Shown piece by piece: positions 48,316 through 61,080 of a stretch of 64,000 nucleotides of DNA (its first letter is position 1; each line of letters opens with the position of its first letter). Source of the DNA: Taxawa tesnikishii (nom. ined.) (taxonomy: Eukaryota; Ascomycota; Dothideomycetes; Dothideales); assembly GCA_030247885.1 (NCBI GenBank), contig JAPDRO010000016.1:682001-746000 (forward strand). The letters run 5' to 3'. The notes under the pieces were generated by a model. That model made no database searches, was not told where the DNA came from, and was given only the letters and a program-made list of their open reading frames with translations. The translations under genes were made by a program, and so were the position numbers.

Positions 48316-48545
48316 ATTAGTAATATAATTAACTATATTATAAGCTTAACCTTATTTATCTTAAGATAATAAACTAAAACTATCTTACGTTATAAAATTC
48401 TATTTTTTAAATTTATAAATTCGTAAGTTAAGGTAATATAAAGTAAATTAAACTTCGACTTAGCCTTAGTAGAAAGTAGCTACTTTTCTTTACTACGCTT
48501 AACTATATATCTACTATAAGATTTATACTAAGTCTTTATATTTTA
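48316..48545. other. RIP-degraded AT-rich island, continuation
   Basis: Same texture as 40685-41767. The final TTTTA (48541-48545) is the left target duplication of the mini-LTR element. Confidence 0.75.
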
Positions 48546-48919
48546 TTTTAACTTGTGACAAAAGTGATGTCACGTGAGCATCTACTCTTGTATACCTTAG
48601 GTAGGGTTATACATGTTAACACTCCCCTAACCCTAGTAAGGGGTACAAGCGTGCAACGTCGCTAATGGATTCGAGGCTCGCAACCTTCCGGGCTTATTGG
48701 CCGACTCCGCGGCTTGCCGAGGCTCTACTCCCGTTTGGGATTTTACGCGCTTCTGCCACAACTCAGGTGGGAATCGAACTCGTGACCTTCTGTCGTACAT
48801 CGAGATCACGATTTAACCAACGCGCTAACCCGGGCTCATAACCTTTTAACTTGTGACAAAAGTGATGTCACGTGAGCATCTTCTCTTGTATACCTTAGGT
48901 AGGGTTATACATGTTAACA
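48546..48919 (-). mobile_element. TRIM: 374-bp miniature LTR retrotransposon with half-tRNA primer site
   Basis: Two 76-bp LTRs (48546-48621, 48844-48919) differ at one base, flank a 222-bp interior and are bounded by the 5-bp repeat TTTTA. In element sense (minus strand) the LTR starts TGTTAACATG. Immediately inside the 5' LTR is GGTTATGAGCCC, complementary to the anticodon stem-loop of initiator tRNA-Met. This is the half-tRNA primer site known from copia and Ty5. A purine tract (GGTTAGGGGAG) directly precedes the 3' LTR. There is no coding capacity, so it must be mobilised in trans. It looks structurally whole and young. Confidence 0.85.
48756..48838 (-). other. tRNA-like module inside the TRIM
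   Basis: On the minus strand an A-box-like stretch (TTAGCGCGTTGG) and a B-box-like stretch (GAGTTCGATTCCC) are spaced as in a tRNA gene. The arms do not pair well enough for a working tRNA and no anticodon can be assigned. It starts next to the primer-binding site and might act as an internal Pol III promoter. Confidence 0.5.
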
Positions 48920-48923
48920 TTTT

Positions 48924-49138
48924 AGGATATTTAGTAAGATATTTAGTAGGATATTTTATAGGATATTTCGTAGGATATTTTATAAGATATTTAGTAAGAT
49001 ATTTAGTAGGATATTTAGTAAGATATTTCGTAGGATATTACGTAAGATATTTAGTAAGATATCTAGTAAGATATCTAGTAGGATATCTAGTAGAATATCT
49101 AGTAGGATATTTAGTAGGATATCTAGTAGGATATCTTA
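48924..49138 (+). repeat. 12-bp minisatellite (AGGATATTTAGT)n
   Basis: About 18 imperfect tandem copies, beginning directly at the right target duplication of the TRIM. The repeat keeps a long open frame by chance (a four-residue YLVG-type repeat) that I do not regard as a gene. Confidence 0.85.
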
Positions 49139-49321
49139 TGTTTATCTTAATTACTTATAGCGCTTTTATTATTATATATATCTTCCTTTATTTTTAGTAC
49201 TTCTTTTTCTACTTACTATATTATAATATTTCGACTCTTTTAATTTCTTAAACTCTATTTTAGATATACTTAGCCTTTATGTCTTCGTTTTCCCTTTTCT
49301 TTTCTTTCTTATTACTTATAT

Positions 49322-49397
49322 TTTTAACTTGTGACGAAAGTGACGTCACGTGAGCATCGTCTCTTGTATACCTTAGGTAGGATTATACATGTTAACA
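49322..49397 (-). repeat. Solo copy of the TRIM LTR
   Basis: 76 bp, matching the TRIM LTRs except for about four positions, flanked by TATAT on both sides (49317-49321, 49398-49402). It shows a full CRE-like TGACGTCA followed by CACGTG. Probably left after recombination between two LTRs of an older copy. Confidence 0.82.
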
Positions 49398-53818: not shown

Positions 53819-56800
53819 TTTTTAGTGACCGTGCCAGGGAAGAAACAAAGCCCTTGAGGAAACAGTCAACAGAAGGAGTGCGTAGAGTAGTAGGAGAACA
53901 GCAGAGGTTCTAGTCGATACTGGGAGGACGATTGACCCCTTCAGCTACTCGCGTATCTACGACGATACGGAGGACCTCGGAGGCTGGAGATGGCTCCTAT
54001 ATCGGCGACATAGTGTGCAAGGAACCCTTGCAAGGCATCGCATAGCCGGCGTCTTAAGGCTTCCTATTCTGGAATCGGAGCGTGTCTAGACCAGAGGGGT
54101 CGAAGGCGTGCTTACAAGGGCAAGCAGTATCGAAGGCCTAGCTGGATCTGGAAACACGAGGACTACATGGATGCTAGGGCATACCCATATCAGGGACGAA
54201 CCTTACCGGAGATTAAAAATAAAGTGTAGGGTACCGAGCTACTACAAAAGATGGAGACGATAGTACTACTCTGGATAGAGATCTACATTCATCTGCTAAA
54301 GATAGTATTGGAAATCTTACTGCAACGGAAACCACACCATTGTTACTACGCTACAACATCTGCGGAACTCACTATGTCCGAGAACGTTACTCAGAGCATT
54401 GCTTTCGGAGAAGGAGAAGCGTTCAGTGCCTTCCGTGCTGCTGATAGAGGACACCAGTCCGACGAGGATTCCATGCCATCCAACACCTACAACGATGTTC
54501 CTGGACTCACTCCAGACGGTAATCCTGAGCCTCCACTAGTTACAGAGACGTCCTCGTCCAATAGTCAGGCTATCCGCACTCCTAGTGACAGCCAAGGCAG
54601 AACTACGACCACTTCTACCACGGTTCAACCTGCTGCTCCTGTTCAGGCATCCATTGGTGTAGGTGGAGGGCAAGGCTTGTCTATTAGAGATCTCCGTCGC
54701 CTTGTCGCTAGTAGCAACTTGCCAGGGCCGGATGCTGCTAGATCTCCAAGGTTCACTGGTAGCAATGTCACTCGGTTCGTTGAAGACTGGGAAAAGTAGT
54801 GTGTTGACAACTTCACCACTCCAGAGAAGTCTATCAGATCTCTTCCTCGGTATGCAGATAAAGGACCTGCTAAATTCATCCGGTCTCTAGATTCCTATGC
54901 GGATAGGGAATGGACTAGTTTGAAGAGAGATCCTCCGAGAGTACCGAAAGGATGATATCGACCATCCGAGGAATGCCAAGTCTGCACTAGCTGCTCTCTA
55001 TAAGAAGGCCAAGGATCAGAAAGGCAAAACTCTGGAGGACCAGAAAGGATACTGTCAGCGCTTCCAGGTTCTGCAGAAGAGAGTACCAGATAAGTACATG
55101 AATGCAGTCGAACGAGCGTCTTTGCTGTTGCGCGGACTGGCACCCTCTGTGTCGGAGAAGGTGTATCAGAAGGCACAGTTGGATGGCGAGGATCCGGCCA
55201 CTTTCAGAGACTTTGCAAAGATCATGAAGGTGGCTAAGAAGTTCTTAGATGAGAAGATCGGTTATCAAGGGATTGCAGGCCCTGTAACTGATGATGGTCG
55301 TTTCGAGGAGATAGCAGAATCATACCGTGCTCCGAAAAGAGCATGGCTATGAGCTTCAAGACTGATCAGGTGCGTGGAGGGCACACTAATAAGGCTGTAG
55401 AGAAACTGGCCGAGCAAGTGAGCAAGATATCCATTTGCGTAGGCCAGCTGGTCAATCACTCTATACCGGTACATGTACAGAAAGGTTCGGAGAACGTTGC
55501 GAGAGCAACACCTATAACTGCTGGAGGACAGTATCAGAGGGCCTCCGGATCCCTAGCCACAGGGGCGAATGCTATCCCTGTACGCCCTCAAGGACCCATG
55601 AATTGCTGGTTCTGCTATAAACCAGGTCATGGTACGAACAGCTGCACATATCTTGAAGAGTGTGAGCGTAAAGGCTGGGCGCACCGTGATGGCAACGGTA
55701 TCTTCTTAGGTAGCAGAGACAAGCCCCTAAAACGTCTCCACGGCCAAGAGGAGAGAGGAGAACCTTCTCGGTACGAGCAGGTACTGGAATACTTCGGACC
55801 GAAGAAGGTAGTTATCCGGACAGCGAGAGTGGAAGAAGAAGAGGAGGATGTACATCCGGGCCGCCTTGTACGAGCAAGGTTCCTTACGGTAGACCCTCTA
55901 GAGGAATCAGAAGTGTTGCCTGAAGGACTGGCTAGTGATGGGGAGGAAGACTCTGAAGACGAGGTCGCTGTTCGGTATCATGCAGTCGAAACCTCTCGGA
56001 GAACCGTTGGTGTTGCTGCAGCACGCACTGATAAGGTGCTAGGAAGTAGGCAGAGCAATGCCAATTCTACGGACCACCGGATCAGTAAGCTAAAAGAGAA
56101 GGAGAGGGCCACTGGCAGGCTTCCAGTCTCAAAATCTGCAAGAACTGGACAGTACGTTGGATATTCTGCAGAACCAGAACCTTCGAATGCAACTTTGCCA
56201 GGTAATACAAGGCGGAGCCAGACAGTGGAAGGCCCAGAACTGAGCATGGAAGATCCCCTACTATGCGGAAAGTTCATGGCAGGACACAGCCGAAGACGCT
56301 AAGATGGGACAAGATGGCCCAGAGGGAAGTCGATCCCAAAGAAGTCTTCGAAATGACCAAGAGTGCAAGGGTATCCCTATCATTACATGAACTCATTGGT
56401 GTTGCACTAGCAGTGGCCAAGCACTTCTTCGCCAGATATCAGAATCCGGAATACGCCGGGGAGGATCCAGTTGCTAGAGACACTGGCGCAGAACCGACAG
56501 TACATCACGTGTCTGTTGAGGACGATGGCCAGCAGCAGATAGGAGTGTTCTCCATCAAAGGACAACAGTACCAATTCGCCATCTCCCCATACAACAAGAG
56601 GGATCGGGAAGGAATCAATGTCCGGCTGTTGCAAGCAGAACCGCTGGTTGTGGACGAGGAGGAGGAACCCCTTGAAGACGATGGATTTGCTGCCATAAAT
56701 GAGGATCTCATCTGTGCCGGAAGTCCATTCATAGGGGTGTCGCTAAATGACCACCCAAGTAGATATCAGGCCCTGATCGATTCCGGGTCTGAATGCAACT

Positions 56801-57334
56801 TGATGAGTGCCTCCATAGCAAGGCAAGCCGGCATTCCCGTCAGCAATGGGCCGAGTCTGGTATTGCGCGGCGCAACTGGGGAAAGCACCTTCAAGGGTGT
56901 AGCTCAAGGAGTTGTTGTCCGTCTCGGTGGTGTTAGGATTCCCACCTCTTTCCTTGTTGTGGACCAACCCCTCAACAACATCATCCTAGGACGGCCATGG
57001 GAACGCATGTCTAGGCTGAAAGCGATCAACCATGACGATGGTACCTGGGAGGGTACTGTATATGACAGGTCCGGCAATGTCTCCACCTCTTTCGTTGGTG
57101 TTCGTCCTCACACGGATCGGAATCGTACTACGGAGGAAATACTGTACCGCTCTGTAGTACCAGTCACAGTGAGGCAGGGAAAAGAGTAGGTGGCCCCATG
57201 ACCGGCAGGGCTTCCACCTTATCGAATAGACCGGTAAGAGACGAGAGATCTGAGTATAAAGCTGCGTGCATGAGTGTGCGCGTGGTGTCGAGCGCTGGCG
57301 ATAGCGAGGCCGCTAGTGAGATTATTAGTGGATC

Positions 57335-57361
57335 TTTACATGGCTCCGGGAGCCATGTAAA
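57335..57361 (+). repeat. 27-bp perfect hairpin, copy 1
   Basis: Arms TTTACATGGCTCC and GGAGCCATGTAAA around a single G. It lies between the protease and reverse transcriptase regions. An identical copy is at 61081-61107. Confidence 0.9.
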
Positions 57362-60300
57362 CATGATTGGCTGGCAGCCGCCGCCGAGAACGCGGGGTCA
57401 TCCAGGGTCCAGAGGCTTGGCGCCAAATCCAGGGTCCAGAAATCTCACACTAGATGCAGTGTCTAGCAGGACTGGCAGAAGAACAACACGGCTGCAACAA
57501 TCGGACAGCGATGACTCAGATACACGGATCCAGTCTGCGCGGTTGCACAATAATGCGCAAGACCAAAAGCACCAAAAGGCGCGCTCACAGCCTTCCTCCC
57601 ACACACATCCAGAGATCTGCAGACAGCCGAGATCCGAATGGCCAGAAGATTCGATCTATCCTACACAATTGGTCCGATTCAAGAGCGAGGACGCTCCTAT
57701 ATAAAGAGCCAGGGAGGAGACAATGTGGTACATGCGAGGACACTGTACAAGCGGAAGGCAGACAAGGTCAATCCGGTCAATTCGTCCTTATCTGATAGCT
57801 CAACTCCAAGAGGACTTATTGACTGGAGGGAAGAGCATTAGCAAGAGAGAAACTGCTTCCACAGTCAGCAGGGCAGTACGGACAATGGCTCATTCCGAAA
57901 TTCTCTAAGATCCAGCGTGGTACTCGTCTCAACAAGGAACGCATTGCAAAACTGCAGACTAGAGAGCAGCTATAGCCAAAGGAGAAGGATTTGCTACTAG
58001 AGATGCTGTACAACAGGGAAGCAGCACTAGCATGGGACTTCTTAGAAATCGGAAAGGTCAAACCAGATATGGCACCGCCTCAGGAGATCAGGACAATACC
58101 CCATGAGGCATGGCAAGCTCCAGGGTTCCCTATACCCAAGGCAATAATCCCCAAGATCGTGGAGATGCTACAGGAACGACTGAAGGCAGGATTACTAGAA
58201 TACTGTCACGGCCCATACCGGAATCCATAGTTTCTCGTCGCCAAGAAGGAGCAGAACAAGTTCCGCATCGTCAATGCAGCCATGAACATCAACCGTGTCA
58301 CTATCCGTGATGGAAATCTGCCCCCAAATCCAGATGAATTCAGCGAGCAATTTGCAGGACTCGCAATAACGTCCCTCATCGACCTCTTCTCTGGATACGA
58401 TCAGATGGAACTTGCTACGGAATGCAGAGACATGACAGGATTCATGACTCCTCTGGGACTGCTAAGACAAACGACGCTACCCCAAGGAGCCACCAACTTA
58501 GTGGCGCAGTTCGTGAGAATCATCACCAAAATCCTGGAAGCGCACATTCCGCACGTAGCATTGCCATTTCTGGATGACATTGGTGTCAAAGGCCCGGTTG
58601 ACAAAGAAGGAGACGCAGAAGCAGTACCTGGTATCCGGAAATACGTTCTGAAGCACATCTGTTGGCTAGATGGTGTTCTTGCGGATCTGGAACGTGCTGG
58701 CTGTACCATTGCCGGAGGAAAATCCCAATTCTGCATGTCCGGAATCAAGATCGTTGGCTATGTCTGCGACTCAGAAGGCAGACATCCAGATACTGCCAAG
58801 GTCATCAAGATCTTGGAATGGGATAGGTTTGAGAATGTTACAGATGTTCGGGCATTCCTTGGCTTGAGCTCATACTATCGTCTCTGGGTGGAAAACTTTG
58901 CACATGTGGCAGCACCACTGTACGAACTCATGCGGAAAGACGTGGTGTTTTCCTTCGGAGAACCAGCCAGACAGGCAGTTGAGCTGCTAAAGGCGAAGCT
59001 TACTGATGCTCCAGCACTGAAGTCCATTGATTATACTGAAGGAGCAGGATCCATCATTCTGGCCGTGGATTCTAGCCTTCGCGGATAGGGAGCCATCCTG
59101 ATGCAGTTGGCCAGAGACAACAAGAAGAGACGGCATCCGGTACGATACGAAAGCGGCCTCTGGACGACTACGGAATCCGGCTACGATGCTGGAAAACGCG
59201 AATGCAGAGGAGTACTCAAGGCCCTGAAGAAAGTACGCTCGTATCTGTATAGCGTATTCTTCATCTTGGAAATTGATGCCAAAACGCTGGTGGCGCAGCT
59301 CAACAAATCGTCCTCGGATCTTCCTGGTTCCGTTATGGCCCGATGGGTAGCCTGGATACGACTATTCACATTCGAGGTTCGACATGTGCCTGGTACCAAA
59401 CACACTGCTACAGATGCGCTGTCTCGGAGACCTCGCCATCCTTCGGATGACGATGATATGCTAAACGAGCAAGACATTGACGTGGTCATCGACGCAGATC
59501 TGTTCACTACTTCTGTGTGCACTGTTACAGTTGACGGGGTGTTGAAATGTACCCCACAACCACAGCGGCCGCTGTTGGAATGTCGTTGGTAGAAGGTTAC
59601 TCGGAGAAATCTCAGAGAATAGCGGAATACCTCACGACTTTGAAAAAGCCTGCGGCCATGGATCTCAAGGAATTTCACGCATTCAAGAAAGAGGCGCTCA
59701 ACTATCTGGTCCGCGGTCAGCATCTATTCCGGAGAAATGCCAGGAACATGCCACTACGGCGGGTAATTGACAGCGAGGATCAGAGGCGAAAGATTATTCA
59801 AAGCCTGCATGATGAAAGTGGCCACCGAGGACGAGAGGCTACTTACAGAAAGGTCGCTGACCGTTACTGGTGGAACAATGCCTTCAAAGATGTTTCCAGA
59901 TACTGCGCGGGCTGCCTAGAGTGCCAGATGCGTGCTAACTGCAGGGATGTAGAGGAATTGCATCCGGTTTACTAGCAAGTCCTTGGAGAAGCATGGTCAG
60001 TGGATATTGTCTCTATGCCCGCGTCTGGTGGCAAGGAATACCTCGTTGTCGCCAGAGAATTAGTGTCAGGGTGGCCAGAGGCCAGAGCATTACGCAAGCC
60101 TGATAGCCAGGCCGTTGCAAGATTCCTTTACGAGGACGTCATCTGCAGACATGGGTGCTTCGCCAAACTAATCAGCGACGGAGGACCTGAGAACTTCGGC
60201 TATGTATCTGCGTTGGCTGCACAGTATGGAATTCGGAAGATTGTCACCTCCGCTTATCATCCTGAAGGCAATGGATTAGTGGAACGCGGACATCCGAACC

Positions 60301-61080
60301 TTGTTGACTGCTTGTCAAAGCTTACTTCCGGGTTCAGCAAGCCCTGGGACGTACGGTTACCGGAAACCTTGTGGGCAGACCGGATTACGCTGAGGCGATC
60401 CATTAACATGTCTCCAGCATGGATCCTATATGGAAGAGATGTCGTTCTTCCGATCGAACTGGAATTCCCATCATGGCAGGTACTGGACTGGAGCACTGTC
60501 AAAACTACCACGGATTTGGTGGCTATGCGCGCACAACAGTTAGCACGCCGGGATGAAGTCCTGGAGGATGTACTACTATACCAACAGCGAATGCGGGAGC
60601 AGAACGCAGAGGAATTCAACAATCGGAAGAATGCTACGTTCGAACAGCTGAACGTCGGACAGGAAGTCCTCATCCATGACACGAAACGCAAGAAAATCCG
60701 GAGAGACAAGCTGCTGTTTCGATGGTACGGTCCTTCCAGGATCAAAAGCGTTACCCCTATAGGTACCTACGTACTGGAAACCTTGGATGGTATTGAAATG
60801 AAGGGGACTTATACCCGAAATCGGCTGAAACCATGGATCCGGCCTATCCTCCCAACCACGCCTGAACGGCTGCAAGATCGGTTGGTAGCTGCTGAAGGCG
60901 GCATGCCTTCACCTGAGGATGAAGGATCAGAAATCAATTTGCAGGACGAGGAACTGGAGGACGAATTGCCTGCAGACATCAGAGATACAGGCCCAAAGGT
61001 GATCGTCAGCGTGCCGCGAGGATTCGATCCATCGCAGTACGAGGATTACATGGAGTAGCCAGCCAGCTGGCAGGCTAGGT

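Follow-up and report, generated by a model that had tools for sequence, protein, structure and literature searches.

In plants, the primer sites of TRIM and SMART elements usually match the 3' end of a tRNA. Other solutions are found in the elements that come closest to the one described here, the Helenus TRIMs, which hold tRNA-derived sequence in their LTR and occur in fungi, animals and one plant (Kojima 2024, PMC10886601). The sections of that study drawn on here give 113 Helenus TRIM families in Pucciniales and state that, in fungal Helenus, the anticodon loop of initiator tRNA-Met (iMet) is the prevailing primer type; most fungal families combine anticodon-loop primer sites with 5-bp duplications and primer-matched copia elements, and LTR-1_PTrit also has a copia element with a similar interior and unlike LTRs. 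The term TRIMp3 is proposed there for such elements. The same sections cite Drosophila copia and yeast Ty5 for anticodon-loop priming and describe Cassandra and Ajax as TRIMs with 5S rRNA-derived sequence. From a dothideomycete, Cochliobolus heterostrophus, nine TRIMs are recorded in the part of PMC4112212 consulted. These reports date the statement of a first-pass annotation of our locus that TRIMs are rarely described in fungi and, as far as their cited parts go, mean that its headline features, a fungal TRIM and a half-tRNA primer site, were already known. We here describe the element, its copies, its probable partner and its primer tRNA genes in Taxawa tesnikishii.

Anatomy of a 374-bp element

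The window, a stretch of 64,000 nucleotides of contig JAPDRO010000016.1, contains a unit of 374 bp at 48546-48919 that is oriented on the minus strand and consists of two 76-bp LTRs and a 222-bp interior. LTR comparison places the 3' LTR, in the sense of the element, at 48546-48621 (minus strand, TGTTAACATG...AGTTAAAA) and the 5' LTR at 48844-48919 (minus strand). The pair is identical at 75 of 76 positions, and the LTRs end in TG...AA rather than the usual TG...CA. In the flanking sequence, the target-site duplication TTTTA stands on both sides, at 48541-48545 and 48920-48924. A purine-rich tract, GGGTTAGGGGAG (48622-48633, minus strand), was assigned by its position at the border of the 3' LTR, which its run AGGGGAG (48622-48628) directly adjoins. 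At the other end of the interior, the primer-binding site (PBS) GGTTATGAGCCCGG (48830-48843, minus strand), the complement of the iMet anticodon arm, was assigned by its pairing with the host iMet and lies flush with the LTR; GGTTATGAGCCC, at 48832-48843 on the minus strand, is the part that adjoins it. Position, LTR and interior lengths, TTTTA duplications, a purine tract and a primer sequence exactly at the LTR junction had all been described in the first-pass annotation, and we found each of them as described.

The unit thus has the features by which TRIMs are recognised: two LTRs, a total length below 1 kb, with 374 bp being too short for the needed proteins, and a PBS and a purine tract at the two ends of the interior. 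SINEs, by comparison, have no LTRs and are moved by LINEs via their 3' tail, while LTRs, a PBS and duplications of a fixed 5 bp are present here. A 12-base tandem repeat (GGATATTTAGTA-like) occupies about 48923-49150 of the window and starts right at the target duplication of the TRIM. Beyond an AT-rich block, a further stretch of the window (56263-61058) appears LTR retrotransposon-like, with open frames, a match to an aspartyl protease and a weak one to an integrase core (24 bits, below the cut-off).

Young and mutated copies of the element

We searched the genome assembly from which the window is taken (29,367,862 bases in 34 contigs). The whole element gave at least 31 matches, comprising at least 21 copies with two LTRs and at least 10 single LTRs; the LTR as query gave at least 37 matches and the interior at least 21. 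Exact 5-bp duplications, in the range of 4-6 bp expected of a TRIM, flank 17 of the 21 two-LTR copies at differing sites and are absent from the other four. At the copy C30:1422286-1422658, the duplication would, on our reading, match if the LTR were taken one base shorter. Seven of the ten single LTRs, read by eye, also have exact 5-bp duplications. One single LTR of the same family, found by the LTR search, lies in the window at 49322-49397 (minus strand; 93-95% identical, flanks ATATA/ATATA). Of the three single LTRs without exact duplications, two, L036 (C1:106737-106810) and L037 (C1:105749-105824), are inverted to each other at a distance of about 0.9 kb, and each carries the duplications of the other, the pattern expected after an inversion between two LTRs. 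The identification of the unit as a TRIM, against which, according to the first-pass annotation, a lack of further copies bounded by 5-bp duplications would have spoken, is therefore borne out by its anatomy, by the further copies and by their duplications.

The two-LTR copies fall into two age classes. With gaps left uncounted, the seven youngest show 0 to 6 differences from copy L002, which indicates recent movement, and the remaining fourteen show 26 to 100. Among the 1015 differences of the fourteen older copies (listed as L008, L019-L029), 970 are C-to-T or G-to-A. In these copies, C was changed at 525 of 601 CA, 230 of 644 CG, 119 of 601 CC and 96 of 642 CT sites, a CA-biased pattern like that of repeat-induced point mutation (RIP). 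Such CA-to-TA change is heavy in the older copies and almost absent from the seven young ones. The family thus combines a recent burst with older copies that have been mutated. In the 800 bp that surround a copy (400 on each side), the GC content is 15.6 to 30.9% in 20 of the 21 cases and 43.6% in one; in gene-rich parts of the window it is about 49 to 58%. Because mutation has spared the young copies themselves, the DNA that they entered was probably AT-rich already.

A primer site shared with a resident copia family

The iMet genes of the host carry CCGGGCTCATAACC, 14 contiguous bases that are complementary to the primer site GGTTATGAGCCCGG of the TRIM. The PBS thus matches the anticodon arm of the organism's own iMet, which supports a copia-type half-tRNA site. 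This agrees with the first-pass annotation, which had proposed such a site from the element alone and had named a mismatch with the species' tRNA-iMet as what would speak against it. The pattern GGGCTCATAACC occurs 15 times in the 29.4 Mb, and its reversed control twice. Judged by place and context, the 15 occurrences are seven young TRIM copies, three copia elements, three iMet genes and two something else.

A genome search with the reverse-transcriptase family PF07727 (RVT_2) gave 47 matches, of which the best four, L039-L042, belong to one copia family. Its members measure 5,492-5,495 bp, and all four have 5-bp duplications; their LTRs, about 167 bp long (TGTTACAAG...GTTCAACT), end in TG...CT, not TG...CA. 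This family pairs with the host iMet across the same 14 bases as the TRIM; in L042, one of the four elements, the primer site has a different first base. Six weaker loci (L013-L018) are 76-85% identical to L040 across about 3.2 kb. The open stretches of L040 are separate (409, 482 and 173 aa) and form no single long frame.

Comparison of TRIM and copia on the plus strand revealed 17 common nucleotides at the very start of the interior (E 1e-4). A further 9 nucleotides, GGAGTGTTA, are common to both across the border of purine tract and 3' LTR; at E 6 this match is no evidence by itself, and only its place, exactly on the border, speaks. Two other matches of 10 and 9 nucleotides (E 1.5 and 6), located elsewhere, were set aside as chance. 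Matches at the start sites fit a parasite that has kept little except the start sites of its helper. The first-pass annotation had suggested a comparison with autonomous copia elements sharing both primer site and LTR ends: a family with the same primer site is indeed present in the same genome, but the sequence comparison found no LTR similarity to it beyond the ends. The proposed mobilisation in trans thus rests on the junctions and on co-residence.

A tRNA-Ile-like segment behind the primer site

The first-pass annotation had missed a segment that follows directly on the primer site. Bases 16-70 of the interior (48774-48828, minus strand) align with a tRNA-Ile(AAT) gene of the genome (L107) from the D-arm to the T-loop, with a local score of 35, compared with a maximum of 27 in 500 dinucleotide shuffles and a score of 21 on the other strand. 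None of 300 simple shuffles of interior bases 1-80 reached the tRNA score. The comparison set consisted of 20 tRNA genes taken as nuclear, from which iMet is absent. The segment is accompanied by a strict box A (TGGTTAAATCG, 48809-48819, minus strand) and a box B (GTTCGATTC, 48771-48779, minus strand), both found by motif match; the strict pair has normal spacing, is present on the sense strand only and arose in 1 of 400 shuffles. The box A that is aligned with the tRNA, TAGCGC-GTTGG, lies just before the strict box A, overlaps it in part and has a one-base deletion. A suspected second tRNA-like stretch, at interior bases 81-222, was dropped, as 102 of 300 shuffles reached its score. The LTR gave a best score of 14 against the 20 tRNAs, which all 300 shuffles reached.

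The Rfam tRNA model had no match on the TRIM at E values up to 10, so a tRNA fold is not apparent in the tRNA-like part; the other Rfam families listed were far below their cut-offs. ARAGORN called no tRNA genes in the window and none at five loci with the GGGCTCATAACC pattern. Judged by its letters, the segment behind the primer site is not a tRNA, although it looks derived from one. With respect to transcription by RNA polymerase III (pol III), the interior is free of T-runs of four or longer. The only such run of the LTR is TTTT at LTR positions 59-62, and the first T-run downstream of the box pair is the TTTT of the 3' LTR. A pol III start at what we take to be the usual spacing would fall at the border of LTR and PBS or inside the primer site. 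Without read-through, such a start would yield an RNA that lacks the normal terminal repeat.

Split initiator tRNA genes

The whole genome was searched with a 22-base iMet 3' pattern at up to three mismatches. It gave three places, the same three iMet genes that bear GGGCTCATAACC, and all three were found to be split when their sequences were read: L043 (region of C1:570408, minus strand) has two inserts in the D-arm, and L051 (C11:89599, plus strand) and L054 (C29:579417, plus strand) have one each. Removing the inserts yields iMet tRNAs of 72 bases, which fold in a cloverleaf-like manner for L043 and L054, not for L051. The Rfam tRNA model gave 32.5 bits for L054 without its D-arm (cut-off 29), a weak 26.6 bits for L043 and no match at L051, and ARAGORN made a single call on the three loci, a Gly tRNA at L054. 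Runs of T5 to T7 begin 11-15 bases past the iMet genes, as is typical of pol III. At L051, a second AGCTGAGTGGCGCAG, the iMet 5' end, is found from 1073 onward, about 350 bases upstream of the gene.

Single D-arm inserts were also read in a tRNA-Phe gene (L112, C12:443929-444179, minus strand), which appears to carry the usual anticodon intron as well, and in a tRNA-Ile gene (L121, C33:554899-555149, plus strand). They represent one of five tRNA-Ile places, all of which were read, and one of five tRNA-Phe places, of which four were read. All six inserts are 53-59 bases long, start with GT, end with AG and contain a branch-like YTRAY motif that starts 14-16 bases before the end. This set of signals occurred in 27 of 300,000 random stretches from window positions 1-36000, a comparison favoured by our fixing the insert ends to the GT-AG reading wherever a one-base slide was possible. 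From these signals, the inserts are likely candidate spliceosomal introns in pol III genes. A spliceosomal intron in a pol III gene is known from the U6 gene of fission yeast. Two of the six inserts were searched in the genome for introner-like copies, and each was found only at its own place. In the open-licence literature we found no report of spliceosomal introns in tRNA genes, and the consulted parts of PMC3978253, PMC13149111 and PMC8450103 report none. If spliced by the spliceosome, the split initiator tRNA genes would be a surprise in their own right, and we consider them more surprising than the TRIM itself.

Proposed mobilisation and transcription of the element

The element is very probably a non-autonomous miniature LTR retrotransposon that is primed by half of iMet and borrows its proteins from the 5.49-kb copia family resident in this genome. 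Its RNA would be packaged, and the proteins of the copia family would do the copying. For minus-strand DNA, initiator tRNA-Met would be cleaved within its anticodon stem, and its 5' half would serve as the primer on GGTTATGAGCCCGG; plus-strand synthesis would proceed from AGGGGAG. Integration by the copia integrase would create the 5-bp duplications, for the most part at AT-rich places. A tRNA-Ile-like gene would be the ancestor of the part of the interior that follows the primer site immediately. The anatomy of the element, its copies and their duplications, the match to the primer tRNA, the junctions in common with copia and the resemblance to a tRNA are observed; we infer that the copia proteins are used, that the primer tRNA is cut, that the AT-rich target preference may be more than nesting and that the tRNA-like part could have a promoter role. 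That no retroelement is involved, and that the unit is a direct repeat arisen by chance or some DNA element, is hardly credible: such a reading could appeal to the short length and the atypical 3' LTR ends and to nothing more. Both versions of it are refuted by the 21 two-LTR copies, 17 of them with exact 5-bp duplications at differing sites, by the 10 single LTRs, by a PBS and a purine tract each placed at the junction where it belongs, and by a copia family of the same PBS.

Within the favoured reading of a copia-driven TRIM, the origin of its RNA deserves closer weighing. The internal boxes A and B, derived from a tRNA-Ile, might drive pol III transcription of the TRIM RNA, making the element a hybrid of SINE and LTR retrotransposon; otherwise the LTR would be the promoter. 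From the sequence we regard pol III transcription as possible, if somewhat doubtful. The tRNA similarity and a normally spaced box pair on the sense strand only argue for it, as do an interior free of longer T-runs up to the TTTT in the 3' LTR and an LTR that itself lacks tRNA similarity. The repeat for the first jump would, however, be only the last few LTR bases, and the weak TTTT in the 3' LTR would have to be read through; a start at or inside the primer site, by the spacing assumed above, would leave little or no 5' repeat, and the tRNA-aligned box A has lost one base. Moreover, known pol III TRIMs hold their promoter in the LTR, according to the sections of PMC10886601 drawn on here. Alternatively, the tRNA-like stretch may be a relic, or a tRNA mimic that aids, for instance, primer capture or packaging, with the RNA being made by pol II from the LTR, a reading whose chances we consider evenly balanced. 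It explains full terminal repeats without special pleading, and HIV-1, which has a tRNA-like element near its primer site, provides a precedent. Against this reading stands that the segment resembles tRNA-Ile and not the primer iMet, although iMet was absent from the 20 tRNAs compared. It is unlikely that all of the more unusual features hold at once, i.e., that an internal pol III promoter makes the RNA of the copia-driven TRIM, that a repeat of a few bases suffices for the jump and that the primer comes only from tRNA genes spliced in spliceosomal fashion.

In published pol III TRIMs, the promoter lies in the LTR, and the RNA thereby acquires the terminal repeats on which reverse transcription depends. 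A tRNA-type promoter inside the element would, if true, break this rule and represent a second route to an LTR parasite with a SINE-like head; alternatively, the tRNA-like sequence close to the primer site may have a function outside transcription. With seven nearly identical TRIM copies beside a young copia family, the question of the promoter is approachable by RNA and cDNA mapping.

Comparison with known elements

In its size, its short LTRs and the presence of a PBS and a purine tract only, the Taxawa TRIM resembles the classic TRIMs and SMARTs, which are plant families. It shares with copia and Ty5 a primer site that complements the anticodon arm of the initiator tRNA; copia and Ty5 are autonomous, whereas the Taxawa TRIM codes for nothing. 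Like Cassandra and Ajax, as characterised in the cited sections of PMC10886601, it is a TRIM that contains sequence of a small-RNA gene with pol III boxes, but their promoter is of the 5S type and lies in the LTR, and the boxes of the Taxawa TRIM are internal and of the tRNA type.

The closest resemblance is to Helenus as described in those sections. Both are short, non-autonomous, copia-type LTR elements of fungi with 5-bp duplications and, in many of the Helenus families, an iMet anticodon-loop site, both contain tRNA-derived sequence, and both are accompanied by copia elements with matching primer sites. The hosts of fungal Helenus given there are Pucciniales and Agaricomycetes, while that of the Taxawa TRIM is an ascomycete. 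The RIP-like pattern of the old copies points the same way, as does, weakly, a search with one protein of the window: its best-scoring named hit is from Rhinocladiella mackenziei (49% identity over 99%), the most similar named hit near full score is from Zalaria obscura (66% over 61%), and filamentous ascomycetes make up most of the named hits. Unlike Helenus (TRIMp3), which is defined by tRNA-derived sequence in the LTR, the Taxawa TRIM has none there, and its tRNA-like segment is internal and directly behind the primer site. Because the screen reported in PMC10886601 sought tRNA sequence in LTRs, as its cited parts describe it, it may have missed an internal form. It is this internal place of the tRNA-like segment that is new in the Taxawa TRIM.
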